Below, piece after piece: positions 13,039 to 29,085 of a stretch of DNA of 64,000 nucleotides (position 1 is the stretch's first letter; each line of letters begins with the position of its first letter). The stretch is from the NCBI GenBank assembly GCA_937120475.1, contig CAKZJV010000007.1, positions 2,496,068 to 2,560,067 of the forward strand. The letters run 5' to 3'. The translations under genes were made by a program, and so were the position numbers. The DNA is from an uncultured Cryomorphaceae bacterium. GTDB taxonomy: Bacteria; Bacteroidota; Bacteroidia; Flavobacteriales; Schleiferiaceae. The notes below the pieces were generated by a model. It searched no databases. It was not told where the DNA came from and worked only from the letters and a program-made list of their open reading frames with translations.

Positions 13039-13278
13039 CCGCCCGGGTTATCCAGCGTACAAAGCTGATGATGGAGTGAGGGTGGAAGGTTTGCCCTTAA
13101 ATTTTTCAAAACTTTTTCTGTCAGAAAAAAGCGGATGCAATCGGGTGGATTATAACCCAAAGTATAAATACAATGCTTGAAGTGAGAGTTTTACCAAAGT
13201 GTGCTTTCACTTAAGAAAGAGTAATTAAAGCTTTAAAAAACTAAATTGGTAGAGTCTATTAACATTAAACTCTACTCT

Positions 13279-15462
13279 ATGAGACGTAAAAACTACTCTT
13301 TACGGGCTAAGCTTCTTTTTGCTTTGGCCTTTGCTTCAACGGGCTTTCTTTCGGCCCAGAATGAACCTGAACCCTGCGGTACAGAAGTCCCGGAAGGGTT
13401 TTATGAAGAAATGCAAATCCGTATGAAAGACATACGCGAACACGGCAAGGGTAAAGCCATGTCTGCATCTACCTTGCCGGTGCAGTTTATTATTTGCCGT
13501 AATAACGATGGAAGCAGCCCGGCACTTAGCAGTGCTCAAAAAACCAATGTAATGAATGAGATTAATGGGGCCTATGCCTCCATGAACATTGCTTTTTATG
13601 AGGCTGCATCGGAATTGTATATCGACAATTCCACCTGGAACAGTTCTTTTAACAAATCTGATGATTACCTGCTACCCGCTTATGAGGTAGCTAACGTGAT
13701 CAACATTTTTGTATTTAAGACCATTATGAGCGGTAGTAGCAGTATTTGCGGATACGCCAAGTTTCCGAACGGAGGCGTAAATGACAACCGCATCATTATT
13801 CAAACCTCCTGTTCTCAGAATGGCTCTACCACTGCTCATGAGTTGGGTCATTATTTCTCTATCTTTCATACCCACCAGGGTGGCAACGAACTGGTAAATG
13901 GTTCCAACTGTACCTATGCTGGCGACCTGTTTTGCGATACCCCGGCAGATCCCAACATAAGTGGTGATGTGAATACATCCTGTATATACACCGGAACGGA
14001 TACCGATGCTAACGGTGATCCTTATGCTCCCGATCCCAATAACATCATGTCCTATTCGCGTAAATCGTGCCGTACCGATTGGAGCACCGAGCAAGAGAAC
14101 GCCATTGTTGCGAGCCTCAACACCGACCGAAGTTACCTGCTGGATGGTGCCATTGTTTCTACTTTCCCCTATAGCGAGGGTTTTGAAAGCGGGTTCGGAG
14201 GCTGGACCAACCAGAGTGGTGATGACATTGATTGGACGCGTGATGCTAACGGAACTACCTCTTCCAGTACCGGCCCTTCATCCGGGCAGGCGAGTACATA
14301 TTACCTGTACACCGAGTCCAGCGGAAACGGTTCCGGATACCCAGGTAAAGTGGCGGACCTGGTGAGCCCTGAGATTGACCTGGGAGCACTTAACAATCCT
14401 GTTTTGGAATTTGGTTACCATATGTATGGCTCCAGCATGGGCACTATGGAGGTGTCGGTAAGCACCAATGGCGGTACATCCTGGACCTCAGTATGGTCAG
14501 AGACGGGAGACCAGGGCAATAACTGGTTTACTGCTGAGGTAAGCCTGGCCGATTATTTTGGGGAGCAGATCCTAATACGTTACCGCGGAACCACTGGTTC
14601 AAGCTACCGCAGCGATATGGCTATTGATAATGTGAGTGTTCGGGAAAGTGATGACAACACCAGCGTGATTAATACCTTTCCTTACATAGAAGGTTTTGAA
14701 ACAGGTCTGGGCGTGTGGACTAACGGAAGCAGTGATGATTTTAACTGGAGCCGCAATAGCGGAACCACACCCTCCTCATCCACTGGCCCTTCCGATGCTC
14801 AAAGTGGTACATATTACCTATACACCGAGTCCAGTGGCAGTAATCACCCATCCAAAGTAGCAGATTTCATTAGCCCATCGGTTTACCTTACCACTCTTAC
14901 GAACTCTGAACTGCAATTCGGCTATCACATGTATGGCTCAGCCATGGGTACTTTGAGGGTTTACGTGAGTACCAATGGAGGCTCATCCTGGGTACAGGAA
15001 TGGTCTCAGATTGGCAACCAGGGTAATAGCTGGAACACTGCTACGGTAGATATTTCAGCTTATGACGGACAAACGATCCTGATCCGCTTTGAGGGAACTA
15101 CCGGTAGCAGCTATACCAGTGATATATCCATCGACAATATCCGTATCGATGGAACCGGGGGTTTGGATGAGGAAGTTATCAATCTGAACCTATTACGGCA
15201 AAATGTTTCAGGTATCAGCTTATATCCGAACCCGGTGAAAGGTAATACAGTAAACCTGGAAGTGGATAATTACAGCGGTGCGGTTTCAGGTATTTTAAGA
15301 ATTGTGGGCATTGATGGTAAAGCAGTATATCAGAAAGAACTACAGTTACAAGAGGGAAGCAACGAGTTCCAGGTAGATGTCTCAGCTTTGAGTCATCAAC
15401 TGTACCAGGTTGTTATTATTCTGGATGATCGGGAGGTACTAAGCACCCCAATGTTACGCTAA
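13279..15462 (+). CDS. secreted M43-like (cytophagalysin) zinc metalloprotease with T9SS domain
   Basis: 727 aa from ATG at 13279, which begins the signal peptide 'RRKNYSLRAKLLFALAFASTGFLSAQ'; the earlier TTG at 13246 only adds a leader. The catalytic domain (about 60-290) has zinc motif HELGHYFSIFH (H187, E188, H191, H197), with Ser where M43 enzymes usually have Gly, and a Met-turn in 'PNNIMSYS'. Two homologous MAM-like beta-sandwich domains follow (about 295-455 and 465-630; each 'FPY.EGFE.G...W.N.S.DD..W.R'). A T9SS type A sorting domain comes last ('LYPNPVKGNTVNLEV'). Predicted role is extracellular proteolysis for nutrient uptake. Confidence 0.92.
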   Translation: MRRKNYSLRAKLLFALAFASTGFLSAQNEPEPCGTEVPEGFYEEMQIRMKDIREHGKGKAMSASTLPVQFIICRNNDGSSPALSSAQKTNVMNEINGAYASMNIAFYEAASELYIDNSTWNSSFNKSDDYLLPAYEVANVINIFVFKTIMSGSSSICGYAKFPNGGVNDNRIIIQTSCSQNGSTTAHELGHYFSIFHTHQGGNELVNGSNCTYAGDLFCDTPADPNISGDVNTSCIYTGTDTDANGDPYAPDPNNIMSYSRKSCRTDWSTEQENAIVASLNTDRSYLLDGAIVSTFPYSEGFESGFGGWTNQSGDDIDWTRDANGTTSSSTGPSSGQASTYYLYTESSGNGSGYPGKVADLVSPEIDLGALNNPVLEFGYHMYGSSMGTMEVSVSTNGGTSWTSVWSETGDQGNNWFTAEVSLADYFGEQILIRYRGTTGSSYRSDMAIDNVSVRESDDNTSVINTFPYIEGFETGLGVWTNGSSDDFNWSRNSGTTPSSSTGPSDAQSGTYYLYTESSGSNHPSKVADFISPSVYLTTLTNSELQFGYHMYGSAMGTLRVYVSTNGGSSWVQEWSQIGNQGNSWNTATVDISAYDGQTILIRFEGTTGSSYTSDISIDNIRIDGTGGLDEEVINLNLLRQNVSGISLYPNPVKGNTVNLEVDNYSGAVSGILRIVGIDGKAVYQKELQLQEGSNEFQVDVSALSHQLYQVVIILDDREVLSTPMLR

Positions 15463-15489: not shown

Positions 15490-15519
15490 AGCATCCCGGA
15501 TATTTCGGGATGCTTTTTT
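15490..15519. terminator. bidirectional terminator between convergent genes
   Basis: AGCATCCCG and CGGGATGCT pair perfectly (9 bp) across GATATTT, followed by six T. It sits between the protease gene (+) and the tolC-like gene (-) and touches the stop codon of the latter. Confidence 0.85.
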
Positions 15520-16918
15520 AGTAAATAGAGAATAAATTACCCTGGCTGAAGAGGATGTCCAGTTCTTTCTGCTCCCGTTTGGAGAGTAGTTCCAGGAATT
15601 TAATACGGGAATTAATAAGCTGCACTTCCCGCGAGTTTACCAGGAATAAGGAGCTTTCCCCTGCGTTGAACTTTCGCTGTTCCCCGTTTAATAAACCCTG
15701 GTAATCCTCAACCATTTGAGTTGAGATATCCAATTGGTCGTTCACGGCATCCCATTCATTAATGGAAGAGCGCATCTGGTTATTCAGGGCTTGTTGTTTG
15801 TATTCCAGTTCCAACTGGGTTTCCTGAACGTATATGTTAGCCAGCTTCAGGTCACCACGCTCCTTCCGTAAAAAAAGCGGGAAGCTAAACTCAAGCCCCC
15901 AGGTGTAATTGGCTGAGTTATAATTGGCCCAGGTTTCATCACCCATAGGTTCCAGCAGGGCGTTGTATTTCAGGTTAAGCTCAGGCTTCAAACGTTCCCG
16001 TTTTAAACGCCTGTCCAGTTCAAGCTCCTGCACCTTATAGCGGTATTGTTGCAAGGCCGGGTGGTTATTCAGCAAACTGTCATTAAACAGGGGAACAAAA
16101 TCTGCGGAGAGGGCCGTGTTTATTTCCGGAGGCCTCGTTTCTTCAGCCAGCTCCAGCGGCAAAGTACCTTCCTGCCATAAGTAAACCGAAAGTTCCAGGG
16201 CCGTATTATTTACTTCCAGGGTTGCTTGTCTGAGGCTCATCTGCCGGTTTTGCAGCTGTAGCCCGGCTTCCAGGGTATCAATACGCGGACGTTCCCCGAT
16301 AACGGCCCTCTTACGAACCGCATCCATCCGTATGGATGCTGCTTCTACCGCTTCGCGGTAAACCTCCTGGGCGTGATAGGCGCGAAACCAGTCCCAGTAA
16401 GCCTTCCCGGCTTTCTGGAGCAGTTCGTTCAACATGAGTTGCTGCTGTACTTTGGTACTTTCCCTGAAAATACGGGCCTTACGAACCTCAGTCCTCCGTT
16501 GATCTACAATGAGGTTCTGACCAACGGGCAAGGATAAGCCAGCGTACCACAAACCATTTTGCGGAACATTTTCCTGGGGGTTCAAAAAGAGGCCATCGTT
16601 GGTTTCATAACCCCCTGCAATGTCTAAACCTAACCAGGTAGGAACCTTTAACCCTCCGTGGATCTGGCTGTAGTAATTTTTGCCATCAAAATATTTCTGA
16701 TCCACCGTGCCAAAGGTTTTAGGATCAAAATTTCCCTTTGATTTCAGGAAGTTGGCTTCACCACGTTCCACCATTAAGGCCGCCTGTTGAGACATCGGGT
16801 GGTGCTTCTGCACTATATCCATAAATTCCTGATAGGTAAAAATTTCTCCTTCCGGATTTTCCTGGGCTAAAAGAGCCTTCGAAACCAGCAGGATCAGGAT
16901 GATGAAGCGGTACTTCAT
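15518..16918 (-). CDS. TolC-family outer membrane efflux protein
   Basis: 466 aa with signal peptide 'KYRFIILILLVSKALLAQ'. Two long helical repeats typical of TolC/OprM ('VRKARIFRESTKVQQQLMLNELLQKAGKAYWDW', 'LFLVNSREVQLINSRIKFLELLSKREQKELDILFSQG') are seen. It forms the outer-membrane channel of a tripartite exporter. Its ATG overlaps the HlyD-like gene by 4 nt. Two copies of TGGTTATTCAG occur 285 bp apart within it (15777-15787 and 16062-16072); these explain the deletion in the decayed copy at 12573-13038. Confidence 0.9.
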   Translation of the reverse strand: MKYRFIILILLVSKALLAQENPEGEIFTYQEFMDIVQKHHPMSQQAALMVERGEANFLKSKGNFDPKTFGTVDQKYFDGKNYYSQIHGGLKVPTWLGLDIAGGYETNDGLFLNPQENVPQNGLWYAGLSLPVGQNLIVDQRRTEVRKARIFRESTKVQQQLMLNELLQKAGKAYWDWFRAYHAQEVYREAVEAASIRMDAVRKRAVIGERPRIDTLEAGLQLQNRQMSLRQATLEVNNTALELSVYLWQEGTLPLELAEETRPPEINTALSADFVPLFNDSLLNNHPALQQYRYKVQELELDRRLKRERLKPELNLKYNALLEPMGDETWANYNSANYTWGLEFSFPLFLRKERGDLKLANIYVQETQLELEYKQQALNNQMRSSINEWDAVNDQLDISTQMVEDYQGLLNGEQRKFNAGESSLFLVNSREVQLINSRIKFLELLSKREQKELDILFSQGNLFSIY

Positions 16919-18276
16919 TTTTTTGATTCTTTAGCCGGTTGTTCAGGCACTGACCCGGGCTTATAATAGTCAGGCGGGAAACCGTTGATCTTTCGCCACA
17001 ATTCGTACCAAATAGGCACATCTTTCAGCAGAAGCATGTTACGCGTGCCGGAACCCACCCGCAAAGCATCCGGCCAGGTATGGTCATTCGGATCCGGAGA
17101 TACCATAATGCGGTATTTGCCATTATCGCTGATAAAATTATCAATGGCATAAACCACCCCACCATAGGTTCCATAACTCACGTTGGGCCAGCCGGAAAAT
17201 ACAATGGCGGGCCAACCGTCAAACTGGATACGTACTTCCTGACCTTTATCCACCAGTGGAAGGTCAACCGGTTCTACGTAAAGCTCTACAGCAAGGTCGT
17301 AGGTGGCGGGCATGATACTCACAATTTCGGCCCCCTCTTTAATGGTTTCACCAATTCCCGAGCGGATGATCTTGGTTACGTAACCATTCTGCGGGGCGGT
17401 GATATAATAAAAACCACTCCGTACAGAGTAATTCATAAATTGGTTTTGCAGCTTGGTCACTACCGCCTCGGCATCGTACATATTGGAGAGGGCGGTAAAC
17501 TTTTCAGACTCGGCCTTGGATATGTTATCGCGATACTGGGCCCTTAACGAAGAAATTTCCATCTCGGCATTGATCAATTCATTTTGGCTGGAAAGTAGCG
17601 CATTTTCTGCGGCTATTACCTCGGCCTGCGTTTTTTGCAGGGTGAGTTTACGGTTCTCAAGGTCGGTAAGAGACTTTAAGCCATCGTTGTAAAGGCTCTC
17701 CGCACGTTCCACCTGCTTTTGGGCAATCTGGTAATTCACCTGGGCAGCCTGGAAGTCAATACTATCGCTGGTTACTTTTAATTTGGCCTGTTTCAGTTTG
17801 TTACGGGCCTGTTCCAATTTCAGGCGACTGGTTTGCAGCAGGGCATCAATCTGGTTATCGAGGGCATTTACCTTTTCCGAGTAGGATTTTACCGCCATTT
17901 CCTTAGACTTCAACTGCTGTTCCGTACGCCCTAAAAGACTAGGGTCGAAGTAATCGTCCTTAACCTCGGAAATAAACATGATGGTATCCCCTTTCTCCAC
18001 TAAATCCCCTTCCTGCACGAACCACTTCTCAATTCGCCCGGCAATTATAGAGTTTATCGTTTGCGGCCTTTGGGAAGGTTTTAGCGTGGTCACATATCCC
18101 CGGGAAGTAATATTCTGGGTCCATGGTAAAAAGAGTACGGTGAAAAGTACCAGCAACACGGCAACTCCAAAGCGAATCACCATACGCCCGGACTTTTTAC
18201 TCTCCACTTTCTTAAGCGAAGGAAAGTTTTTAGGGTCAATGTATTGCGTAACCCGGTTAATGGAAATGTTAAGCAT
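16915..18276 (-). CDS. HlyD-family periplasmic adaptor (membrane fusion protein)
   Basis: 453 aa. An N-terminal membrane anchor (about 30-50, 'MVIRFGVAVLLVLFTVLFLPW') is followed by a biotinyl/lipoyl-like half ('INSIIAGRIEKWFVQEGDLVEKGDTIMFISEV'). A coiled-coil hairpin of about 170 residues, the second lipoyl half ('YYITAPQNGYVTKIIRSGIGETIKEGAEIVSI') and a beta-barrel come next. It bridges the inner-membrane ABC protein (8-nt overlap upstream) and the TolC channel (4-nt overlap downstream). The substrate could be a small molecule, lipid or peptide. Confidence 0.92.
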   Translation of the reverse strand: MLNISINRVTQYIDPKNFPSLKKVESKKSGRMVIRFGVAVLLVLFTVLFLPWTQNITSRGYVTTLKPSQRPQTINSIIAGRIEKWFVQEGDLVEKGDTIMFISEVKDDYFDPSLLGRTEQQLKSKEMAVKSYSEKVNALDNQIDALLQTSRLKLEQARNKLKQAKLKVTSDSIDFQAAQVNYQIAQKQVERAESLYNDGLKSLTDLENRKLTLQKTQAEVIAAENALLSSQNELINAEMEISSLRAQYRDNISKAESEKFTALSNMYDAEAVVTKLQNQFMNYSVRSGFYYITAPQNGYVTKIIRSGIGETIKEGAEIVSIMPATYDLAVELYVEPVDLPLVDKGQEVRIQFDGWPAIVFSGWPNVSYGTYGGVVYAIDNFISDNGKYRIMVSPDPNDHTWPDALRVGSGTRNMLLLKDVPIWYELWRKINGFPPDYYKPGSVPEQPAKESKK

Positions 18277-19999
18277 CTTCGGAATTGTTAGGTTTTATGG
18301 TATCCAGGGCCTCTTCACCCTTTCCTTCTTTAATAAATTTACCTTTATGCAGTATCATAACGCGGTCACAGTAACGCGCTAAAATCGGCTCAGACCCGGT
18401 GGCTATCAAAGTCCACGGGTTTTCATCAGCCGTTAAAAAGCGGATAATGGACTCGCGGTCCGGTTGATCCAGGTGTTCAAAGGCAGCGTCCAACAATAGC
18501 AACCGTGGTTTATCGGCTACGCTGCGGGCCAGCAAAATTTTGGTTACAATTTGCTTGGGTAAGCCTTTACCCTCCGGTTCCAAAATAGTGTTATACCCTT
18601 CTTCCGCTCTGCGGATAAATTCGGATAACCCCAGGCTTTTCACCACTTTTTCTACCCATTCGAGGGAAGCATTGGGTCGGCCAATGGCAATATTTTCCAT
18701 AATGGTACCCTGAAATATCTGCTCATGAGAGAGGCAGTCACCAATAACCGAATAAAGTGATTCTGAAGATAGATTACCCTTGGGGAGGCCGTCATAACTC
18801 ACGGCACCTTCCTGTACCTGGAAAAGCCCGCTGATTACCGCCAGCAAAGTGCTTTTGCCCGAACTGGAGTTACCGGCAACCATCACCTTTTGGCCCTGCG
18901 GTATGGTAAATGAAATGTCACATAATTTTTGAATAAGGCTACCGGGGTACGAAAAGCTTACATGCTCCAGGCATACCTCCATACCGATACTGCGGTCTCC
19001 CTTAATCTCTGCTCCGCTGGTTTTTTCCAGTTCCAGGTCGGTTACCTGCCCGATTTTCTCCAGGCCGGTTAAAACATCATAAATGGATTCCATACTCAAG
19101 ATGAGTTTTTCAACGGCTCCCATTACCAAAAGGATAATGATTTCGGCTGCTACAAACTGTCCGATGTTCATTTGTTGTTCAATCACCAGTATTCCTCCAA
19201 TAAGTAAGAGGCCAGCCGCCACAATAACCTTAAACACTACCATTAGCGAAAACTGCCGTATCAGAATCTGGAAGTGTGATTCACGTGCTTCGAGGTAACT
19301 CCCCGAAAACTCATCCGTGCGTTGCATATGTAAATTGGTGGCTCCTGCCAGCTTGAAAGAGGTGGCAGCCCGTGCCATTTCTTCCAGCCAGTGGGCCAGC
19401 ATGTATTTGTACTTGGACTCGCGCAGGCTGGTATTTAAACCACGCACCCCGGTATAGCGGATGATGGCATAAATGAGCACCACCAATACCAAACTGAAAG
19501 CAATGAAAAAAGGATGGTACAAAGAGAGCAGGATCAAACCGAAAATAACGTGTAATGTACCCGTGGAGAAATCGATCAGTATTTTGGATAAGCCCTTTTG
19601 CACGGTCATAACGTCAAAAAAGCGGTTCATCAGTTCCGGGGCATAGTGCCGGAAGAGGGTTTCCATACGGATGCGCGGAATGCGATAGGTAAACTCAAAA
19701 GCAGCGCGTGTAAATATTTTCTGTTGAATATTTTCCGTTACCCGCATTTGTAAGATGCGCAATATGCCGTTCAGGCCTACCCCAAAAACCACAAAGGCCA
19801 CCAATACAATCCAGGAGGTGCTGATTTGCCCTCCCTGGATAAGGTTGATGATAGCCTGTATTCCAAGCGGTAAAGTGAGCGCCACTAAACCGTTGAAGGC
19901 GGCATAAATGTAAATGTTGCGGATTTCCTTGGCATCTGGCTTTAGCAGTCGCCAAAAGCGTTGCATCGGGCTCAGGCCTGCGGGTGAATTATATTCCAT
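18269..19999 (-). CDS. ABC exporter (TMD-NBD fusion) with degenerate nucleotide-binding motifs
   Basis: 576 aa. The membrane half (about 1-310) has six hydrophobic segments, and the nucleotide-binding domain covers 340-560. Walker A is intact (GNSSSGKS, 376-383). The Q-loop region reads 'SVIGDCLSHEQIF', with no Gln in the usual place. The signature LSGGQ is replaced by GLPKQ (479-483). Walker B 'RLLLLD' is followed by Ala505 where the catalytic Glu belongs, and the switch His is absent ('LIATGSEPIL'). The frame is clean and co-translational with hlyD/tolC, so it is a maintained gene. It probably binds ATP but hydrolyses it slowly, or uses non-canonical residues. Confidence 0.88.
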   Translation of the reverse strand: MEYNSPAGLSPMQRFWRLLKPDAKEIRNIYIYAAFNGLVALTLPLGIQAIINLIQGGQISTSWIVLVAFVVFGVGLNGILRILQMRVTENIQQKIFTRAAFEFTYRIPRIRMETLFRHYAPELMNRFFDVMTVQKGLSKILIDFSTGTLHVIFGLILLSLYHPFFIAFSLVLVVLIYAIIRYTGVRGLNTSLRESKYKYMLAHWLEEMARAATSFKLAGATNLHMQRTDEFSGSYLEARESHFQILIRQFSLMVVFKVIVAAGLLLIGGILVIEQQMNIGQFVAAEIIILLVMGAVEKLILSMESIYDVLTGLEKIGQVTDLELEKTSGAEIKGDRSIGMEVCLEHVSFSYPGSLIQKLCDISFTIPQGQKVMVAGNSSSGKSTLLAVISGLFQVQEGAVSYDGLPKGNLSSESLYSVIGDCLSHEQIFQGTIMENIAIGRPNASLEWVEKVVKSLGLSEFIRRAEEGYNTILEPEGKGLPKQIVTKILLARSVADKPRLLLLDAAFEHLDQPDRESIIRFLTADENPWTLIATGSEPILARYCDRVMILHKGKFIKEGKGEEALDTIKPNNSEDA

Positions 20000-20214
20000 T
20001 CTTTACGGTTTAAGGCCATCAGCCAGATTGAAATTAAATGATTGTAAAAAAATGTATCAACAACTTTAGGGGATAAGCGTTCAAAAACCCCAGGTCCCTG
20101 GTATTTACCAAAACGGTACCCCACTACCTGTGCATGGCAAGCCCGGTAGGGTAAATGCAAAAAGCTGTTCAGGCGGCATAAGGAAACCTTTAACAATATG
20201 TTCGGAAGCGACAT
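19972..20214 (-). CDS. doubtful 80-aa open frame between tetR and the ABC gene
   Basis: An ATG lies about 8 nt after the TetR stop, and the frame runs 80 codons to overlap the ABC start by 28 nt. Spacing would suit an operon, and 'LPYRACHAQVVGYRFGKYQGPGVFERLSP' is not obviously low-complexity. I recognise no family, and there is no signal or membrane segment. It may be untranslated leader or remnant; without it this ~220-bp stretch holds no gene. Confidence 0.25.
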   Translation of the reverse strand: MSLPNILLKVSLCRLNSFLHLPYRACHAQVVGYRFGKYQGPGVFERLSPKVVDTFFYNHLISIWLMALNRKEWNIIHPQA

Positions 20215-20221
20215 TTTAAAG

Positions 20222-20890
20222 CTAAGGTTTTATGATTTTGAATACCATTTGATTGTAAAATTCCGAAACTGCGTCTTCACCCTTAACAATATCCGTAAGG
20301 CGCGGTAAATGTTCTGCAAAAAAGCGTTGATGATGAGAGCCCTCCACCACGGTGGAAATCAACATGTGGGGATATTTGAATTGGGGGTTGATTTGCAAAA
20401 TTAACTTACTCAGGTTATCCACCAGCCGTTTATAAATCACAAAAACCCCCTCCTGGTTTACTTCGTCCACTTCCTTTACCAGGTAAGCTTTACTGGATTC
20501 GGAAATTACAATGTGGTTGAGTTTTACCTCGTCAATATGTTCAAATTGTCCGTCCGGCTTAACGGGGCCGGTTAATAACGGCAGGGCGCGCTGAAGCTGC
20601 TCCTCCGGAGATTCAATGTTGGCGATGGCAAAGGAAACCCGGTATTCCATCCAACCCCAGTACCATGAAATGAGGTACAGTAACAATTTGTACTTGCTCT
20701 CAAAATAGCGGTAAATAGAAGCCTCGGTGGAACCGATCCGGGTACCCAGCTTACGGAAGGTGAAATGCTCAAAACCAATTTCTGCAATGAGGTCAATGCT
20801 ACCGGTAATAATCCGTAAACCCAATTCGCTGGATTCAGGGTCTTTCAAGTAGAGGCATTGGTTCAATTTTAACTGTACTGCCGGAAGCAT
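20222..20890 (-). CDS. TetR/AcrR-family transcriptional regulator
   Basis: 222 aa. The N-terminal helix-turn-helix is at about 22-72 ('LRIITGSIDLIAEIGFEHFTFRKLGTRIGSTEASIYRYFESKYKLLLYLISWYW'). The C-terminal ligand domain is not recognisable. It is the first gene of the minus-strand unit ending in ABC-hlyD-tolC and is probably its local repressor. It is divergent from the CHAT gene, sharing a 131-bp intergenic region that should hold both promoters. Confidence 0.88.
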   Translation of the reverse strand: MLPAVQLKLNQCLYLKDPESSELGLRIITGSIDLIAEIGFEHFTFRKLGTRIGSTEASIYRYFESKYKLLLYLISWYWGWMEYRVSFAIANIESPEEQLQRALPLLTGPVKPDGQFEHIDEVKLNHIVISESSKAYLVKEVDEVNQEGVFVIYKRLVDNLSKLILQINPQFKYPHMLISTVVEGSHHQRFFAEHLPRLTDIVKGEDAVSEFYNQMVFKIIKP

Positions 20891-21021: not shown

Positions 21022-23919
21022 ATGAAACGCACAAATACTCTTTTTTTCATCCTTCTATTCTGGATCGGTGCCGGGCACCTCTATGCCAGCGAATTTCCGC
21101 AGCTTGATATACAAAGGCTGAAGGAAACCCCCGAATACCGACAGGTAGTGAAGGCTTTAGACGAGGGAAAGCCGCAAGACGCGCGTGAAGTGGGAAGACA
21201 TGCCCAAGGAGCTTTGTACCTGCTCATCGGTAGTGAGTTGCAACAATTTTATTTGCGGAAAAAGCAGTACTCGGCTTGTACTAAACTTTTCATTCCCCGG
21301 AAACGAGAAAGCTCCCGTCTTGAAAAATACCTGCTGGGCAAAACCTATTTCCATAAAGGTGAGGCTTATGATTACCTGGAGCAACCCGACAGTTCCCTGT
21401 ACTTCCATCAAAAATCCCTGAACCTGAGACGTGAAGTTTTAGGAAACCACCACCTGGAAACAGCCACCAGCTATGGCTACCTGGGCTTTTTATACCGCTA
21501 CCGGATGAGTGATCTCGTACAGGCAGAATACCATTATCGGCAGCAGTTGAAAGCCCTGGAACATATAGAAGCTGAAGCGGAACACCGTGCCCGCTGTTTT
21601 TACAACCTTTCATCTACCCTGGGCGAGAGGAGGGATCACCGCCTGGCCCTTACCTATGCCCACCAGGCACTGGAGCTGGCACAAAGTGATAGCATGTCAG
21701 TTATCTTCCAGGCCTACTGCCTCACTGCGGTGGGCAATAACCATAAACTGCTCGAGCAATACACCAAAGCCATTCACCACTATCGCCAGGCTATTGTTCT
21801 TTTGGAAAAGGAGTGGGGTAACGGGCACCCCGCGCTGATACTGCGGCTCAATAACCTGGGAATTGCCTACTGGGAAGCACTGCAAGATTCGGCTGCGCTT
21901 TACTGTTTTGACCGGGCACTGAATATTGCCTTAAAAACTTACCATGGCGAAGCCTTGCCCGTGGCAGATTGTTATATGCTGGTGGGCCTGCATCAGTCGC
22001 AGGCCGATAGCCGTATGCCGTTTATACGCAAGGCATTGGGTATTTACCGGCAAAATTGTGAGGGCTTCTGCAAGGAGGTGGCGGAGGCCTACGTGCAAAT
22101 GGGGCGTTGGTGGGAACGAAAAGGAGCCCTGGATTCCGCAGATTATTACTATCGGCAGGCTTTTATGGAGGATGAAGGCTTACCCGATGTACAACAAACC
22201 CTGACTCAGCCTTACCGCATTACTATACTTGAAAATTACGCCTACCTGTGTTTACAGCGCAAGCGGTTTAAAGAGGCACTGCGGGTTAGCCTCTTGCTGG
22301 ATGAGGCTCTCACCTTAAACCGCATTTCCTTTCAGCGGGAAGGTTCAAAGTTGCACCAGGCGGGGCAGTATCAAAACATTTATGAAAATGGCCTGCGGGC
22401 CGCCCTGCCGTTAAGGGGAAAGCTGGGGGGTGTGGATAGCCTTGCGTGGCGTTTGATGGAGAAAAGCAAGGCCCAGGTGCTACTGGAATCGGTGGCCAGT
22501 CTGCAAATTCGCAGTGGTATGGGGCTGCCGGAAGCATTAGTGGAAAAGGAAAGTGCCCTGCGGGCCGAATTTGCCCGTTTGGAGGCACTTTTACCGGCTG
22601 CTGACGAAGGTACCGTGGCAGCTATCCGGCAACAACAGTACCGTTTAACCCGTGAACAGGACTCCCTGCTGGAATACACCCGTTCTCATTTCCCCAACTA
22701 CTACCGCCTAAAGTACAATACGGATGTACCCGCTTTGACATCGGTTCAGGCTTACCTGCAAGAAAGCGAGCAGGAACTGCTGGAGTTCTTCTGGGGTGAG
22801 GAAGGGGTTTATGCCTTTCGGGTTTCAGCCACACATTGTATCCTGCAACGTATCGGTTCAACCGATTCGCTTAAAACACTGCTCAGGCGATACCGTAATT
22901 TTCTGCAAAAGGGTTTCGTGTATGAGTCCCGGGAAAAAGACTTTGAGGAAATAACCCGGCTGTCTTACCACCTTTACCGGAAACTGCTAAGCCCGGTGCT
23001 GAAGGGCTCCATACCCGAAAAGCTTATTATAGTGCCGGATGGCCCGCTAGCCTTATTGCCTTTTGAAACGCTACTTACCAGGCTTCCCCCTAGCAACAAG
23101 GTCAATTATCAAGAGCTGGATTACCTGGTGCAATCCATGGCAATACAGTACGCCTATTCAGCCGGTTTTTTAATGGAAGCTCCCGGGCGAAGGCCCGAAC
23201 GTTCCCGTTACCTGTTGGCCTTCGGTCACAGTATTTCCGGTCCCCGGGCCTTACCTCGTTCAGTGGATGAGGTACAACTTTTAAAAGAACGGTTTCCGGG
23301 TACCCGGGCCTATTGGGAGGAGGCCAGCCGAAAAAGCCGTTTTATGAAGGAACAGGGGCAGGCCGGTATTTTGCATCTCGCGCTTCACAACCTCAATGAT
23401 ACTCTGGAACCCTACAATTCAGGATTGATTTTTCCCGGTACCGGGGCGGAACCCCTGCGGCTGCATGAATTGTACGGCCTGCAATTTGAGGCCAGCCTGG
23501 CCGTTTTGAGCGCCTGCGAAAGCGGTACCGGCCGCCTTTACAAAGGGGAAGGTGTGTTTAGCATGGGGCGTGCTTTTGCCTATGCCGGCATACCGGCCGT
23601 GGTTACCAGCCTTTGGCCGGTGAGTGATGCTAAGGTTCCTGCCTTTATGAGCACCTTTTACGAGGCCCTTTTTAACGGGCAAACCTCCACCGCAGCCTTA
23701 ACCACCGCTAAAAGGAATTACCTGCAGCATTCCGATAAATTTAATGCGCACCCGGCTTATTGGGGAGCTTTCATAGCCATAGGAGATACCCTCCCCGCAG
23801 AACACGAAGGTTATCCATTATGGATATTGAGGGGCTTGCTGCTATTATCGGCTGTTGGGCTGGTATGGGCGGTTTTCAGCAAACGCAAAAGAGGATATAC
23901 TTCAGGCAAGCCAGAATAA
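21022..23919 (+). CDS. exported TPR-CHAT protease-like protein with C-terminal membrane anchor
   Basis: 965 aa. The signal peptide is 'MKRTNTLFFILLFWIGAGHLYAS'. TPR repeats span about 90-480 (e.g. 'ATSYGYLGFLYRYRM', 'ALTYAHQALELAQ', 'YTKAIHHYRQAIVLLEKEWG'), followed by a helical linker. A CHAT (caspase-like) domain at about 640-915 has the catalytic dyad His789 ('LHLALHN') and Cys832 ('LSACESGTG'). One membrane helix (about 932-953) and a basic tail KRKRG close the protein. The sequence predicts a periplasmic protease tethered to the inner membrane. TPRs may sense a partner. The downstream convergent genes encode a sigma factor and a single-pass TPR protein, so this may be their activating protease (inference). 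Confidence 0.9.
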   Translation: MKRTNTLFFILLFWIGAGHLYASEFPQLDIQRLKETPEYRQVVKALDEGKPQDAREVGRHAQGALYLLIGSELQQFYLRKKQYSACTKLFIPRKRESSRLEKYLLGKTYFHKGEAYDYLEQPDSSLYFHQKSLNLRREVLGNHHLETATSYGYLGFLYRYRMSDLVQAEYHYRQQLKALEHIEAEAEHRARCFYNLSSTLGERRDHRLALTYAHQALELAQSDSMSVIFQAYCLTAVGNNHKLLEQYTKAIHHYRQAIVLLEKEWGNGHPALILRLNNLGIAYWEALQDSAALYCFDRALNIALKTYHGEALPVADCYMLVGLHQSQADSRMPFIRKALGIYRQNCEGFCKEVAEAYVQMGRWWERKGALDSADYYYRQAFMEDEGLPDVQQTLTQPYRITILENYAYLCLQRKRFKEALRVSLLLDEALTLNRISFQREGSKLHQAGQYQNIYENGLRAALPLRGKLGGVDSLAWRLMEKSKAQVLLESVASLQIRSGMGLPEALVEKESALRAEFARLEALLPAADEGTVAAIRQQQYRLTREQDSLLEYTRSHFPNYYRLKYNTDVPALTSVQAYLQESEQELLEFFWGEEGVYAFRVSATHCILQRIGSTDSLKTLLRRYRNFLQKGFVYESREKDFEEITRLSYHLYRKLLSPVLKGSIPEKLIIVPDGPLALLPFETLLTRLPPSNKVNYQELDYLVQSMAIQYAYSAGFLMEAPGRRPERSRYLLAFGHSISGPRALPRSVDEVQLLKERFPGTRAYWEEASRKSRFMKEQGQAGILHLALHNLNDTLEPYNSGLIFPGTGAEPLRLHELYGLQFEASLAVLSACESGTGRLYKGEGVFSMGRAFAYAGIPAVVTSLWPVSDAKVPAFMSTFYEALFNGQTSTAALTTAKRNYLQHSDKFNAHPAYWGAFIAIGDTLPAEHEGYPLWILRGLLLLSAVGLVWAVFSKRKRGYTSGKPE

Positions 23920-24106
23920 TGGCAATGGCGGCTCCTAAAATAAGGTACTGCCCGGCTTTGGTGCTGAGCGGTCTTACCTCGTCCCATTTTATATCAGGGG
24001 TGTCCCTGGAGCGGTCGCCACCGCCCCCACCCGCGGCTTCTGCGGTATCGTCTGATCCGGAGTTGGTGTTGGGGTCTTCTTCAGGAGGTCTTTCTTCTGT
24101 TGACAT
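23876..24106 (-). CDS. 76-aa tail-anchored acidic membrane protein
   Basis: Residues 1-50 are acidic and Gly/Ser-rich ('STEERPPEEDPNTNSGSDDTAEAAGGGGG'), 50-73 form one membrane helix ('AGQYLILGAAIAIILACLKYILF'), and the tail ends CVC. It lies 26 nt downstream of the TPR anti-sigma-like gene on the same strand, and its 3' end overlaps the 3' end of the CHAT gene by 44 nt. Composition, spacing and a conserved-looking hydrophobic segment support a real gene. Function unknown; a membrane partner of the CHAT or sigma proteins is possible. Confidence 0.6.
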   Translation of the reverse strand: MSTEERPPEEDPNTNSGSDDTAEAAGGGGGDRSRDTPDIKWDEVRPLSTKAGQYLILGAAIAIILACLKYILFCVC

Positions 24107-24132
24107 TTTTTGTTGGTTTTATTGGTTGATAA

Positions 24133-24891
24133 TTATCGGATTTGCTCTAATAGTTCCTGGGCTTCCAGGTGTTTGAAGTTATCGCCAGCGGAAATTTTCT
24201 GTAGTAAGGTTTTAGCTGAACGTAACTTACCCAGTTTAACGTAGGCCAATGCACGGTACCAGTTTATCATTTCCTCCAGGTCGCCCTCATCGGCCGCCAG
24301 GCGGTTGAGCAATTGTAAACTTTCCTGTGTTCGTTCAAGGGCCAGCAGGCTTTGGGCCAGGTAAAAACCGGTTTCGGGCTTTGGGTTTTGGCGATAAGCC
24401 AGGGTAAGCTTTTCAGCCGCCACCTCATAGTCCGGTTTTTCGTAGGCCAGCAATCCTTGTTCTTCCAGGCTAAGTTCTGCGGGATTTTCACCCCGTACAT
24501 TCACCGGTGAAAAGTTAGGGTAGGGCTCGTAATAGGTCATATAGAGTGCCTCGTTATTGGTAGCTTCCCTGGGCCAAAGCAAGAAGGCGGCCAGCAAAAG
24601 GCCTATGCTTGCGGCTACGGCAACGTAAGTACTCCATCTTTTATAAAGAGGTATGGGTTTGCTGCCTTCCTGCACCTTCGGCAGGCGTTCCTCCAAACGC
24701 TTTAGCTTTTCCAAAAGATCTTTTTGCGAAGCATGGCGAATACCTTCTACCATTAGCTTTTCCAACTGGTACTTTTCCCGGAAGGCAGCATCGTTTTCCA
24801 GGCGCTCCTCCACCTGTTTAAGATCTTCACCGGTTAGTTCTCCCGCCAAAAAATCTTCAATTAATCTTTCATCATCAGCCGTGTTGTCCAT
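24133..24891 (-). CDS. single-pass TPR membrane protein in anti-sigma position
   Basis: 252 aa. The cytosolic N-terminal ~80 residues are helical ('DERLIEDFLAGELTGEDLKQVEERLENDAAFREKYQLEKLMVEGIR'), the pattern of a zinc-less anti-sigma domain that grips an ECF factor. One membrane helix follows (87-106). The periplasmic part carries two or three TPR-like repeats ('GFYLAQSLLALERTQESLQLLNRLA', 'NWYRALAYVKLGKLRSAKTLLQKI'). It starts 13 nt downstream of the sigma gene stop. It is predicted to hold the sigma factor at the membrane until its periplasmic TPR region is engaged or cleaved. Confidence 0.78.
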   Translation of the reverse strand: MDNTADDERLIEDFLAGELTGEDLKQVEERLENDAAFREKYQLEKLMVEGIRHASQKDLLEKLKRLEERLPKVQEGSKPIPLYKRWSTYVAVAASIGLLLAAFLLWPREATNNEALYMTYYEPYPNFSPVNVRGENPAELSLEEQGLLAYEKPDYEVAAEKLTLAYRQNPKPETGFYLAQSLLALERTQESLQLLNRLAADEGDLEEMINWYRALAYVKLGKLRSAKTLLQKISAGDNFKHLEAQELLEQIR

Positions 24892-24904
24892 AACGCTTTT
24901 AAAG

Positions 24905-25444
24905 TTAGCCCAGGTGTATTTTCCGCAGTTGTTGCATGCATTTATATTTCTGGTTTTTAGCGGTACTGCTGTTTTTATAACCTAGCTGCTCTACAATATC
25001 ATCCATGCGCAGGTTTTGGTAGTAAAACATTTGCAAAAGCTTTTGGCAACCATCACTCAATTTTTTGAAACTTCGGCTTAAAGCTTCCAGCTTCTTCTCC
25101 TTTTCTATTTTTTCCTCTATTTCCTGCCCGTTTTCAACTTCAGAATTATGACCGGCTATCTGCAACTCCTTTTTATGTTTCCGGATATGTTCACGAACCT
25201 TGTTTTTCCCAATACCGAAGAGGTAGGTTTTTAGCTCGCTGGAAAGCTGGTTCAATTTACCGCTAACCGCATTTTCGTACAGTGAAACAATGCTTTGCTG
25301 GTAAACTTCAATGGCATTTTCATGGCTTAAGCCATAGCTTTTCCGGCTCCACAGTACAAACTCTTCCCGGTATTCCGCGTACAGTTCTCCCAAAGTGGCA
25401 TCATTGCCTTTACGGATTTGTTCAACCAGGTTTTGTTTGCCCAT
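24905..25444 (-). CDS. ECF-type RNA polymerase sigma factor
   Basis: 179 aa. Region 2 spans about 10-85 ('EEFVLWSRKSYGLSHENAIEVYQQSIVSLYENAVSGKL...KTYLFGIGKNKVREHIRKHKKE'). Region 4 spans about 120-175 ('LSDGCQKLLQMFYYQNLRMDDIVEQLGYKNSSTAKNQKYKCMQQLRK'). A charged linker separates them. First gene of a minus-strand unit with the TPR anti-sigma-like and 76-aa membrane genes. It is divergent from the 734-aa gene across 255 bp; that gene and itself are the first places to look for its promoters. Confidence 0.9.
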   Translation of the reverse strand: MGKQNLVEQIRKGNDATLGELYAEYREEFVLWSRKSYGLSHENAIEVYQQSIVSLYENAVSGKLNQLSSELKTYLFGIGKNKVREHIRKHKKELQIAGHNSEVENGQEIEEKIEKEKKLEALSRSFKKLSDGCQKLLQMFYYQNLRMDDIVEQLGYKNSSTAKNQKYKCMQQLRKIHLG

Positions 25445-25699
25445 ACACGCCTTAATGATTAAAGGTGGAAAAGGTAACCTAATTTATGAGAAACCGAGCT
25501 TAAACTCTTTTATCCTATCACTTTTTATACCTCCTAATTTTTTATAAGGATTTAAAAGTCAGAGTGCTGCATACGTTTTTCAAAATTTTGTAGTCGGGAG
25601 GGGGTTACTTTTTAAGGTGGGCTGCATAAAGGATTGCATATACCAGAAAGGCCCATTAAAGCCTATGCTGGTCTAGTGAAACTTTAAATTCTAAATATC
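25445..25699. promoter_or_regulatory. divergent intergenic region of the sigma/734-aa genes
   Basis: 255 bp without an open frame, AT-rich next to the sigma gene and with a GC-richer stretch (GTCGGGAGGGGG) about 100 bp before the 734-aa start. Both flanking genes begin here, so it must hold two promoters, possibly one read by the sigma factor itself. I could not define a -35/-10 pair by eye. Confidence 0.4.
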
Positions 25700-27904
25700 A
25701 TGTCAAGTAAATCTCCAAACCCAAAGAGAAAATCAATTACCGCCCGGCTTGCCTATGACGGAAAGCCCGATGGAAAAGAACCCCTGGCCGCCTATGTATT
25801 CAATCGCAAAGGCGAGCTTCAGGAAAAGGTCACCGTAGAGAACGATGAGATCAGGTTCAATACTGATGCCAGGGAAATACTCAACGGCCGCCTGCTCATC
25901 GCTCCCCTGAATCCTGAAAAAAAGGAACAAGATAAAGAGGGGGTAAGCATCCGCAGCCTGAAGGCGCATATGGCTTACGAGCCTGCCCTGAGTCTAAAGG
26001 ATAATGAACTGATCCTGAAGCCCATTCCTGAATTTTATTGGGATAACTGGTGCTGGCGTTCCTGCCGGGTACGCGGCCGGGTGGTAAAGCCCATTTTTGT
26101 GGATGGTGAAAGTGTGGATATGCCGGTATGCCATGCCCGGGTGCACGTGTGCGAGGTGGATCGCCTCGCTCTGATTCTTCCGGAAATACCCGATCTGGAG
26201 ATCATCGATATCCGTGATTTTATCCTGGATTTTCCACCCAAACCGGTACCCATTCCAGAACCCTTGCCCGGACCATTTCCAGGGCCATTTCCTTTTTCAA
26301 GAATGGAAGGTAGCCAGCCTAAAGTGGCGCGAAAAAGTGTACTAAAGCCTTTGAGTAAAGACCTCAAAGAAGCGTTTCGCACCGATTCACCCCTGCAATT
26401 GAGGAAAGTACTGCTGGAAAATTTCCGCGTTTTACACCCCTATTTATGCCTGGAAGCCCGTTTCTGGCCCTATTTCTACTCCTGCGAAGAATTATTGGTG
26501 TTGGATACCGATGGCCAGGGCCGTTTTGACGGTACCATCTGGTACAACTGTTTTGGCGACCATCCCGATCTCTACTTTTGGGTGGAATACAGCATTGGTG
26601 ATGAGTGGACCACGGTTTACAAGCCCCCAAAACCCTGCAATACCTATTGGGATTATGAGTGCGGGTCAGAAGTGACCTTGCGTGTTACCGATCCCCGGGT
26701 AGATGTGTGCGGTGGACTGGACGTTCCTGCGGGCAATAGCAGTGTGGAGATTATCAAGGTTGGAGACCGTGGTTACGTTTCTCATATCGAGCAATCTTTT
26801 TGGGCTACTGAAATGGTGCAGGGTGCGGCCTTGCGTAGTGCGGGCCTTACCAACCTCAACGGTAACGGCCCTAAAATCCGTCCTTTTGGTGGCAGCCTCG
26901 GTTTCCGGGTAAAATTCGGTTCGGCATTCCCCGGTTTTGATAACATTACCCATTACCGCTGGTCGTACCGTAAAATTGCCACTGGTGAACTGAACGGTGT
27001 TGGCGCACAACCCTGGCGGGTGATCGATACCCCCGTAAGCATTAAGTACTACGAAGAGGTAGGCAATAACTTCCACAAAAAAGCCTATCCATTAGGGCCA
27101 GATCCAGCCATGGGTGAAACGGCTTTTAAAATACCTCCGCAGTTTGCTTCGGATATTGATGTGCCCAATCCCGATAACCGCGTGCGTAGCTGGGCGCTGG
27201 AAGAGTGGAACAGTGCTATACTCAACACTTTGTTTAGTGGTGTTCAGGAAATACAGCGCAGGGAGGATGCCGGGCTTTACCAGTTTAAATTCGAACTGTT
27301 GAAGCAGGTGGGCGGCAATCTGGCGGTGGCTGATTTACCCCGTGAGAACTTCCAGATACCGATGGAGGATTTGGACCCTTACCAAACGGAAGATGCGCCT
27401 GATAACCATCTCTTCCTGGTACCGGGTGGCAAGGCTTCAGGCTTTACCATGCGCCTGCGCATTGACAATAACCTTTGCAAGGCTGACATTAAGCCTGCCG
27501 TGGTGGATGGAAATGCCGCCAATGAGTGTGGTTTTGGCGAGTACAACAACCGCGCGACCGATGAGGTGAAACTCTCCTTTCTGGCGTACCACCCCAATAA
27601 CCTGGCTACGCTGAGCTACCGTGTACGTAAAGGCACGCAAACCAATGCTGCGGGTAACCCGGTGTACGTAGAAAGTACGGGTGGTATGTTACATACCAAT
27701 ACCCCCCAGGGTTACAATCGCAATGTGGCCAGTGTATTTGAGAAAGACGTGGCGGTAAGCGACCTGTTGGGTACTTGTCCTACTGAAGCGGCTTTTGGTG
27801 AATACCTGCGGGTAGATGCTTTGGCCACTAACGGCAGCTCTACCGAGTTGGGTTATGATGCGGCTTCACTAGCCGGTTTTGCGATCAAAAGGTCAGCAGA
27901 ATAA
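25700..27904 (+). CDS. 734-aa protein of unrecognised family
   Basis: No signal peptide and no membrane helix. A basic, Lys-rich start is followed by a beta-rich N-terminal domain ('ARLAYDGKPDGKEPLAAYVFNRKGELQEKV'). A Cys-rich core follows with 'WDNWCWRSCRVRGRVVKP' and 'PVCHARVHVCEVD' (about 115-155). A Pro-rich hinge ('PFPGPFPF', about 180-205) comes next. A second Cys/Trp-rich region resembles Ig or carboxypeptidase-regulatory-like beta folds ('DTDGQGRFDGTIWYNCFGDHPDLYFWVEY', 'TYWDYECGSEVTLRVTDPRV'). The C-terminal ~350 residues are beta-rich. No catalytic motif is recognised. Its place, divergent from an ECF sigma gene beside a TPR-CHAT protease, suggests a regulated structural component or protease target (inference). 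Confidence 0.75.
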   Translation: MSSKSPNPKRKSITARLAYDGKPDGKEPLAAYVFNRKGELQEKVTVENDEIRFNTDAREILNGRLLIAPLNPEKKEQDKEGVSIRSLKAHMAYEPALSLKDNELILKPIPEFYWDNWCWRSCRVRGRVVKPIFVDGESVDMPVCHARVHVCEVDRLALILPEIPDLEIIDIRDFILDFPPKPVPIPEPLPGPFPGPFPFSRMEGSQPKVARKSVLKPLSKDLKEAFRTDSPLQLRKVLLENFRVLHPYLCLEARFWPYFYSCEELLVLDTDGQGRFDGTIWYNCFGDHPDLYFWVEYSIGDEWTTVYKPPKPCNTYWDYECGSEVTLRVTDPRVDVCGGLDVPAGNSSVEIIKVGDRGYVSHIEQSFWATEMVQGAALRSAGLTNLNGNGPKIRPFGGSLGFRVKFGSAFPGFDNITHYRWSYRKIATGELNGVGAQPWRVIDTPVSIKYYEEVGNNFHKKAYPLGPDPAMGETAFKIPPQFASDIDVPNPDNRVRSWALEEWNSAILNTLFSGVQEIQRREDAGLYQFKFELLKQVGGNLAVADLPRENFQIPMEDLDPYQTEDAPDNHLFLVPGGKASGFTMRLRIDNNLCKADIKPAVVDGNAANECGFGEYNNRATDEVKLSFLAYHPNNLATLSYRVRKGTQTNAAGNPVYVESTGGMLHTNTPQGYNRNVASVFEKDVAVSDLLGTCPTEAAFGEYLRVDALATNGSSTELGYDAASLAGFAIKRSAE

Positions 27905-28050: not shown

Positions 28051-29085
28051 TTACAGCTTATCTAGAAGCATGTGATGCATGTAATTTGCGAGAAGTCCAA
28101 CAATATCTTCATTAAAGTGATATGTATAGCTCTCATCTTTAGAATATTGATGAAACTCTGGGTTGTGCCACAAAGAATCAATCACTTCAATGAATTGCTT
28201 ATATGATAATTCTCTTTCATTAAAAGGTTTTTCAGATTTTAGATCTTGATAAGTTTCCTTACCAAACTCATATAACCATGAGACTCTGTCTTTGAGCAAA
28301 CTCAAAGTAAATAATACGATTATCTCTGGATTCTTTTGACCAAACTCTGAAGCGTGCATTAAAAATGATAGCTGTTTACCGACTCCCTTTTCACCATGGC
28401 TTCCTTTTTTATTTTGTGAATGTATCCTTCCTTCAATTCTTGATGGTAAATCCTGAAACATAACCTTTATCTCCTCGAATAATTTTGAAGTATTGTTTTC
28501 ATTGTACTCCACATCATTTGCTTCTTCGGGGTCACCTTTTCTCTTCTCAAATATTTGGTCAATTTGAGTGATAAACTTTTTTACATGAAACCGAATGGTT
28601 TCATCATCCGGCTCGGAGTTGGGGATACGATCTACCAATTGAAATACGAGTTTGCATAGATCATCTTCATCGCCTCCGCAGTTTTGAAATTGAGCGAATG
28701 GACCGTTGGAAGCATTTTTTAAAGAGAGTCCAAGTGCCACCCCTAAAATGGGAGTATTGAGCTTTCCCTTAGCCATGCCGGCTTCAAATAGAATCCAAGG
28801 CCGGTCAATACTATTGGGTGTTAGTAAGCACACCACATCACTTGCACTTTGAATATTCTTGATAATCTCAGGGTACCATTCTACACCATATTCAATACCT
28901 TGATTGCTTTTTTTGTCTGATGATCTAAATGATTTGAGAACACCTGCACTTACCCGTTTAAGAAGGGCACTGAATTCTTCGGCAATTTCAGCATCCCTGG
29001 AATCATGACTAATAAAAACCAATGAACTCGAAGTTTTGCTAACTATTTGCTCTTTCTTATCTTCCGTATCTTTTTTCTCACTCAT
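28051..29085 (-). CDS. TIR-domain protein, probable NAD-cleaving effector
   Basis: 344 aa. The TIR domain spans about 20-170: 'SLVFISHDSRDAEIAEEFSALL', then 'GVEWYPEIIKNIQSASDVVCLLTPNSIDRPWILFEAGMA' with Glu101 in the catalytic-Glu position of NADase TIRs. The rest (170-344) is helical, with no family I recognise; 'KKGSHGEKGVGKQLSFLMHASEFG' and 'YTYHFNEDIVGLLANYMHHMLL' stand out. The gene is clearly more AT-rich than its neighbours, and no operon partner is present, so acquisition by transfer is likely. TIR proteins with such architecture serve in antiphage immunity, but here the sensor, if any, must be the C-terminal domain or unlinked. Confidence 0.85.
   Translation of the reverse strand: MSEKKDTEDKKEQIVSKTSSSLVFISHDSRDAEIAEEFSALLKRVSAGVLKSFRSSDKKSNQGIEYGVEWYPEIIKNIQSASDVVCLLTPNSIDRPWILFEAGMAKGKLNTPILGVALGLSLKNASNGPFAQFQNCGGDEDDLCKLVFQLVDRIPNSEPDDETIRFHVKKFITQIDQIFEKRKGDPEEANDVEYNENNTSKLFEEIKVMFQDLPSRIEGRIHSQNKKGSHGEKGVGKQLSFLMHASEFGQKNPEIIVLFTLSLLKDRVSWLYEFGKETYQDLKSEKPFNERELSYKQFIEVIDSLWHNPEFHQYSKDESYTYHFNEDIVGLLANYMHHMLLDKL

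Follow-up and report, generated by a model that had tools for sequence, protein, structure and literature searches.

Craspase combines the type III-E Cas7-11 with the TPR-CHAT protease Csx29, its substrate Csx30 and the sigma factor CASP-sigma, and Csx29 cuts Csx30 at residues 427-429 (PMC10028731; this and the other PMC articles are cited from excerpts of their text). Here we describe a locus in a 64,000-nucleotide stretch of DNA (the window) from an uncultured Cryomorphaceae bacterium, where the genes for a TPR-CHAT protease (CHAT hereafter), an anti-sigma-like TPR membrane protein and an extracytoplasmic function (ECF) sigma factor form a three-gene unit. To our knowledge, very few CHAT proteins have a known substrate. 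From sequence comparisons and structural models we consider it likely that CHAT, anchored in the membrane, serves as the site-1 protease of the anti-sigma-like protein, cutting it after Arg133 and so starting an RseA-like release of the sigma factor.

A preliminary description of the window had noted an echo of Craspase, which holds as a likeness in working and fails as membership. Both systems have a TPR-CHAT protease, a sigma inhibitor as substrate (predicted here) and an ECF-type sigma factor, and Csx29 is the nearest CHAT fold. CHAT here is exported and membrane-anchored, however, and the inhibitor, a transmembrane (TM) protein, has TPRs and a helical part at its N-terminus. Craspase chain 8d9g and its kin (8d9f-h/7x8a), the Craspase chains that could be aligned by sequence, have Ser at the position of D869, a pocket residue discussed below, whereas the prevailing pocket here fits Arg; these chains belong to another Craspase than the Csx29 of PMC10028731, and the Ser was not used as evidence. 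A Craspase member would be expected to have a cytosolic TPR-CHAT protein with neither signal peptide nor TM helix, whereas the protein here has a hydrophobic N-terminus and a C-terminal TM helix. The largest open reading frame (ORF) in the window, of 1012 aa (1469-4507), is smaller than Cas7-11, and within 15-34 kb the largest is CHAT itself. A repeat search of the whole window gave one two-copy family of 24 nt and no CRISPR array. Because the window contains neither a Cas7-11-sized ORF nor a repeat array, and because the protease is predicted to lie outside the cytoplasm, the module is not a member of Craspase.

The ECF sigma factor DdvS of Myxococcus xanthus reportedly controls CRISPR genes. 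Its anti-sigma factor is DdvA, the inactivating signal of which was unknown in 2015 (PMC4374960). There too an ECF sigma factor and its transmembrane anti-sigma are associated with a CHAT fold (8rot/8rw5, matched by name from their titles), but the fold lies inside the anti-sigma polypeptide, whereas here the protease and the anti-sigma-like protein are encoded by separate genes. DdvA is the nearest precedent; it supports an alliance of CHAT with anti-sigma factors and lowers the novelty of the module.

Regulated proteolysis of anti-sigma factors is represented by RseA/DegS/RseP (cited in PMC10028731) and by RsiP (PMC8844934). The module resembles RseA/DegS/RseP in its candidate single-pass anti-sigma with a cytoplasmic part that presumably binds sigma, in the predicted site-1 cut outside the membrane and in the presence of a site-2 protease (S2P), but the site-1 step would fall to a cysteine protease of the caspase/separase kind rather than to DegS or a signal peptidase. 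Neighbourhoods of caspase, ECF sigma and TPR (DUF1822) genes are mentioned for the EACC2 systems, which are described as caspase and EACC2 domain systems tied to conflict and apoptosis (PMC8195603). There, as here, a caspase-like peptidase is encoded together with an ECF sigma factor and a TPR protein, but the available excerpt of that article gives no anti-sigma cleavage site. Separase (clan CD, C50) is alike in fold (Z 21.6) and, in a model, holds a P1 Arg with two acidic residues (PMC4626109); it differs in being eukaryotic and in having the cohesin subunit Scc1 as its substrate. No description of the module in Bacteroidota was found in the open-licence PMC literature, a scope outside which most subscription papers fall.

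The three-gene unit in the Bacteroidota

The preliminary description had grouped five ORFs, the coordinates and strands of which agreed with the ORF list (Table 1). The grouping goes beyond chance for the CHAT, anti-sigma-like and sigma genes, which are linked in relatives, but finds no support for the other two (734 aa and 76 aa). A first search with the 252-aa anti-sigma-like protein covered 119 genomes of the same order and gave matches in 12, own genome counted. In eight of these neighbourhoods CHAT was again convergent on the anti-sigma/sigma pair, often with overlapping 3' ends, and the far side of the sigma gene was variable in gene content (runs of secreted proteins and others, including one neighbour in a relative that we take to be dxs).

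A further 80 stretches were picked by hand around anti-sigma matches in a sample of the phylum, mostly best first and with some matches skipped. Among 96 anti-sigma-picked stretches (window included), CHAT lay in the fetched span of about 8 kb in 70, and a sigma gene lay on the same strand within 150 bases of the anti-sigma gene in 86. Modules were counted where an anti-sigma ORF of 180-360 aa had a TM helix and either an adjacent sigma gene or a score above 60 bits, which gave 94 modules from the 96 stretches. When a second set of 40 stretches, chosen by a profile of Met-type anti-sigmas, was included, CHAT was present in the same stretch for 95 of 134 anti-sigma-picked modules (70/94 plus 25/40). 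The addition of 35 modules from CHAT-picked stretches, where CHAT is present by choice, brought this to 130 of 169. CHAT was convergent on the pair in 48 of these 130 modules, divergent in 45, downstream on the same strand in 29 and upstream in 8, and four gene arrangements argue against mere inherited gene order. CHAT and the pair occur together in, among other named hosts, Flagellimonas hymeniacidonis, Kordia zhangzhouensis, Aureibaculum flavum, Bizionia myxarmorum, Tenacibaculum sp. MAR_2009_124, Agaribacillus aureus and Fulvivirga marina. We regard the trio as a real, widespread unit in Bacteroidota and as a probable switch.

The genes also tend to be absent together. Co-occurrence was counted by hand in 49 genomes of the same order, with a line of E<1e-20 that was set after the list had been viewed, and a strong anti-sigma match was present in 20/20 genomes with CHAT versus 3/29 without (Fisher 6e-11). 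The three CHAT-less genomes that keep an anti-sigma match (G323, G383, G413) all belong to genus g13, and the pair is broken in each: the sigma gene beside the anti-sigma gene is gone in one, and in two there is a fused sigma/anti-sigma ORF (L124:7611-8639 and L125:7665-8636, neither genome having a CHAT match). G323 and G383 are listed among the genomes that lack CHAT, and G413 does not appear in the complete list of those that have one. Two of the three retain, next to the broken pair, a C-terminal remnant of CHAT interrupted by stops. Fewer than three loss events are possible, since a single genus is concerned and the fusions look alike. Four further anti-sigma ORFs among the fetched loci, two of them these fused ORFs, had no CHAT in their stretch.

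The linkage might reflect co-regulation, in which case CHAT would be under the control of the sigma factor or would act on other substrates, such as nearby secreted proteins. Many stretches, chiefly from family f3, do encode secreted proteins between the sigma and CHAT genes, and the two commonest secreted families occur in 18 and 16 of 129 loci. Co-regulation would leave unexplained the decay of the sigma/anti-sigma pair where CHAT was lost, as well as the conserved linker Arg and the pocket covariation described below, and we hold it to be decidedly unlikely.

Table 1. Positions in the window of the genes and predicted functional residues of the locus
Feature	Position	Strand	Remarks
TPR-CHAT protease, 965 aa	21022..23919	+	hydrophobic export signal at the N-terminus, then TPRs, CHAT (res. 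648-922) and a C-terminal TM helix followed by a basic tail
Catalytic His789 of CHAT	23386..23388	+	invariant in 194/194 CHATs; aligned with the CHGE His of Craspase TPR-CHAT
Catalytic Cys832 of CHAT	23515..23517	+	invariant in 194/194 CHATs
Glu750, predicted S1-pocket acid, helix alpha1 of CHAT	23269..23271	+	column ranked first for association with anti-sigma P1
Asp869 (SLWxVxD), predicted second S1-pocket acid of CHAT	23626..23628	+	column ranked second for P1 association
C-terminal TM helix of CHAT, res. about 933-957	23818..23892	+	AlphaFold2 helix 334-358 in a model of residues 600-965
Anti-sigma-like protein, 252 aa	24133..24891	-	cytoplasmic helical part, TM helix, linker, periplasmic TPR domain
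TM helix of anti-sigma-like protein, res. about 82-105	24577..24648	-	AlphaFold2 model
Arg133, predicted P1 of site-1 cut (NVR|GEN), juxtamembrane linker res. 121-141	24493..24495	-	conservation, loop in model, covariation with E750/D869
ECF sigma factor, 179 aa	24905..25444	-	directly upstream of anti-sigma gene; TIGR02937
734-aa protein	25700-27904	+	diverges from sigma gene; no family match

Predicted cut site and specificity pocket

CHAT matched PF12770 with 182.6 bits (cut-off 24) over residues 648-922, and TPR_12 of Pfam was also matched; at E 1e-6, CHAT matches occurred in 186 of 395 sampled genomes of the phylum. The complete His/Cys dyad read from the window was confirmed by comparison, H789 and C832 being invariant in 194/194 CHATs and His785 being kept in 188/194. 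His789 and Cys832 align with the H of CHGE and the C of ACET in a Craspase TPR-CHAT chain, and in sequence alignment their context follows the same pattern as H615/E617 and C658/E659, the catalytic residues named for Csx29 (PMC10028731). The closest folds were Csx29 (Z 23.2 over 274 residues, root-mean-square deviation 2.9), separase (Z 21.6), DdvA (Z 18.4) and gingipain R (Z 17.0). CHAT is predicted to be an active endopeptidase. Among linked homologues longer than 700 aa, the N-terminus was hydrophobic in 117/124 and a C-terminal TM helix was found in 113/124, with a median net charge of +3 over the last 12 residues of the tail that follows it (n=124). By the positive-inside rule, the side of a basic tail is cytoplasmic. 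The basic tail after the C-terminal helix thus places the CHAT domain outside the inner membrane, and the proposal that it shares a side of this membrane with the TPR domain of the anti-sigma-like protein was upheld as a prediction.

The sigma factor has sigma2 and sigma4 homology along its whole length; it matched TIGR02937 with 51.7 bits (cut-off 42.9; res. 18-175) and Sigma70_ECF of Pfam with 20.2 bits, slightly under the cut-off of 21.1, and its profile A3 matched the SigW structure 5wuq with E 1e-12. Cys133 and Cys169 were invariant in 13/13 aligned sigmas (alignment A3), a possible redox or metal site. In the AlphaFold2 model of the anti-sigma-like protein (mean predicted local distance difference test score, pLDDT, 90), helices 3-15, 21-33 and 35-69 are followed by helix 82-105 at the TM position; residues 112-120 then form a short helix and 121-141 an extended linker, after which the TPR helices begin. 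Its N-terminal part presumably binds the sigma factor. Family matches of the protein were weak and of anti-sigma/TPR types, with 15.2 bits for the NCBIfam antisigma model against a cut-off of 100. The Foldseek matches shown for the model were TPR-type, and anti-sigma profiles run against PDB sequences gave TPR-type chains and no named anti-sigma among the best 60 of 129 and the best 60 of 265 matches.

Of 169 aligned anti-sigmas, 10 have a gap in the column of R133 and 159 are occupied there, 125 by R and 13 by K; all P1 counts given here rest on the alignment. R133 was the sole linker position within the 12 most conserved columns, and its surroundings were strongly variable. The basic linker residue stood a median of 27 residues (interquartile range 24-29, n=138) from the predicted TM end, and W914 of CHAT stood a median of 21 residues ahead of CHAT's own TM helix (n=118), so that enzyme and site would both lie near the membrane surface. 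Some modules have Met or Leu at the site, as in LPTTM|SSS (L132), TTM|AA (L287) and STL|SS (L292).

In order to relate P1 to CHAT residues, each CHAT was used once, the nearest CHAT was taken as the partner, and unclassable loci (L028, L153, L159, L176, L177, L233) were dropped. The Met/Leu class was set by eye from the linker, after the residues at D869 had been viewed and before column 750 was viewed. In a scan of 249 CHAT columns with these hand-classed pairs, E750 ranked first and D869 second for association with P1. Glu was present at E750 in 101/103 basic-P1 pairs versus 1/24 Met/Leu pairs, Asp at D869 in 101/103 versus 6/24, and both acids together in 100/103 and 0/24. Two automatic readings of P1, one taken from the alignment column and the other from a profile with that column masked and hence blind to the P1 letter, again put E750 first (p 6e-16 and 3e-10) and D869 second among 247 columns. 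CHATs of the Met/Leu class kept H789, C832, G856 and W914 in 24/24. The Arg pocket looks ancestral, since 52/54 CHATs that have no anti-sigma linked to them carry both acids. The model places E750 on the helix that follows strand 131-136 and D869 in loop 265-272, which joins strand 260-264 to helix 273-285. In gingipain R, MALT1 and, by modelling, separase, P1 Arg is bound by acids of helix alpha1 and of the loop that follows a later strand (PMC4357240, PMC4626109), and E750 and D869 fall in these structural elements when the model is set against the literature. The binding pocket of CHAT and the cut site of the anti-sigma appear, from this sequence record, to have changed together in evolution. 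The preliminary description had proposed that CHAT cleaves the TPR domain of the anti-sigma; the covariation favors cleavage by CHAT, and moves the likely cut to R133|G134 in the linker, outside the TPR domain.

Several observations weigh against cleavage by CHAT at R133. No CHAT was found in the stretch for 39/134 anti-sigma-picked modules, many of which keep the R. From the CHAT side, the pair was in the stretch for 33/80 of the closest CHATs of named genomes (16/35 on stretches of at least 20 kb), and no sigma/anti-sigma lay within about 1.5 kb beside the CHAT domain for the 30 best PF12770 matches of the phylum sample, a span that did not clear the 5' gene ends; at least 4 of these 30 had the pair 3-4 kb away (L165, L169, L171, L172). 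Because the link is looser from this side, the module comprises one large subset of Bacteroidota CHATs. The label 'anti-sigma' derives from gene position, weak profile matches and a helical model. As for the covariation, S830 (kept in 9/24) and L744 (11/24) are also depleted in the Met/Leu class, and relatedness is a confounder: on a CHAT-domain tree built without columns 750 and 869, the P1 class changes six or more times. Three independent pairs lie on well-supported branches, a number with which a sign test cannot reach 0.05; over these, on average, E750 changed in step with the class in 2.7 and in the opposite sense in 0.0, and D869 did so in 1.9 and 0.1, respectively. Basic P1 occurred with one or both acids missing in L166, L178 and L258, of which L178 and L258 have Lys. 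The automatic readings gave mismatches in part from misaligned linkers: of 129, the direct reading had 6 basic without and 2 non-basic with both acids, and the P1-blind reading had 3 and 24, respectively.

CHAT might instead be mainly a sensor or scaffold, with the TPR domains of the two proteins binding each other, another envelope protease cutting after the Arg and CHAT gating its access. TPRs are present in both proteins, and the DdvA anti-sigma itself contains a CHAT fold (8rot/8rw5), so a structural role is possible. A scaffold would have no need of S1-pocket acids that covary with the linker residue, and the catalytic His and Cys are invariant in every CHAT compared; we find such a role unlikely.

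If CHAT is the site-1 protease, the cytoplasmic part of the single-pass anti-sigma would tether the ECF sigma factor to the inner membrane, and the exported TPR-CHAT, anchored by its C-terminal helix, would present its CHAT domain at the outer face of that membrane. A signal may be sensed by the TPR region of CHAT or by the TPR domain of the anti-sigma. CHAT would then cut the linker after Arg133, about 27 residues outside the membrane, as conservation and the P1/S1 covariation predict. In related modules, P1 Arg would have given way to Met or Leu together with the loss of one or both acidic S1 residues. The earlier model had the CHAT cut free the sigma factor; by analogy with RseA/DegS/RseP, further proteolysis would be needed. 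An S2P/RseP-type protease would cleave the shortened anti-sigma within the membrane and cytoplasmic proteases would degrade it, so that the sigma factor is set free. S2P (PF02163) homologues are present in the own genome and also in 14/14 control genomes, so they are uninformative on specificity.

Genes around the trio

Two members of the original five-gene grouping drop out. The 734-aa gene was present in 1/168 stretches, the window itself, and a relative stood near the trio in 0/8 neighbourhoods; the 76-aa gene was likewise present in 1/168 stretches, again the window, where its ORF fills a gap between two genes whose 3' ends overlap in 26/48 convergent relatives. A profile of the 734-aa protein matched 14/395 genomes of the phylum, five of the matches being short and ten of the 14 lying in family f32. 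The protein belongs to a scattered orphan family with a proline-rich stretch and no fixed neighbours in 8 places, and neither it nor the 76-aa protein had a match in Pfam, NCBIfam or PADLOC.

A five-gene system with the 734-aa protein as effector would draw on its divergence from the sigma gene and on the GGTTACC- and GGGTTAC-like sites that flank the shared upstream region, one per side. Upstream of sigma genes, GTTACC occurred in 32/157 cases (shuffled 5.5) and TGTTACC in 18/157 (shuffled 2.1), mostly in one clade; upstream of CHAT there was no enrichment (TGTTACC 2/129, shuffled 1.6; GTTACC 5/129, shuffled 5.8). The motif hints that the sigma gene may control itself in one clade. Expression of the divergent gene by the sigma factor, as first proposed, is left with a weak promoter-like hint. 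Given the scarcity of the 734-aa gene and the confinement of the motif mostly to one clade, we consider a five-gene system highly improbable. Two candidates were rejected: a sigma-dependent promoter motif for the module, being mostly of one clade and not enriched upstream of CHAT, and the five-gene unit, the 734-aa, 76-aa and TIR genes each occurring in 1/168 stretches. The TIR-domain protein beside the 734-aa gene (28051-29085, -; TIR_2 34.9 bits in Pfam, TIR-TM 44.9 bits in PADLOC) is possibly a stand-alone defence gene.

On the other side, a minus-strand cluster of TetR, ABC exporter, HlyD-like and TolC-like genes (15518-20890) ends shortly before CHAT. A link with this cluster was rejected: BLAST clustering hinted at 10 loci, and queries with the window proteins gave 3/168 (L120, L141 and the window), the cluster being counted when TetR or HlyD/TolC adjoined the ABC gene. 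Farther out, the gene at 13246-15462 (+) encodes an M43-like metalloprotease, predicted to be secreted, that carries two MAM domains and a sorting domain for type IX secretion.

Tandem CHATs were seen in L030, L112 and L210, with 2, 3 and 5 ORFs in a row; those of L030 and L112 stand beside one sigma/anti-sigma pair, and L210 shows no pair in its stretch. A 145-aa protein adjoins CHAT in 11 stretches (L034, L035, L103, L105-L107, L109, L111, L117, L123 and one more) and carries an ILDTGAS motif, which we take to be retropepsin-like. Two further families recur, one of a 650-aa secreted protein in 18 stretches and one of a 325-aa lipoprotein in 16; in L034 they lie between sigma and CHAT.

Meaning of the module

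On a wider view, which we hold with evenly balanced confidence, CHAT and anti-sigma may co-evolve as lock and key through the S1 pocket and form insulated envelope signalling pairs across the phylum, the Craspase cassette and DdvA being other outcomes of the same old CHAT/anti-sigma/sigma alliance. If this is true, E750 and D869 would go with Arg or Lys and the loss of one or both with Met or Leu, and one genome could run several CHAT/anti-sigma/sigma lines side by side. If CHAT cuts the anti-sigma as predicted, caspase/separase-like proteases would join the site-1 enzymes of anti-sigma control, and the logic of Craspase would exist without CRISPR and across a membrane. The module would also supply protease-sigma switches that are orthogonal and usable in non-pathogenic hosts. 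Of the CHAT proteins, which abound in Bacteroidota, one large subset would gain a substrate, a cut site known to the residue and a rule of specificity.

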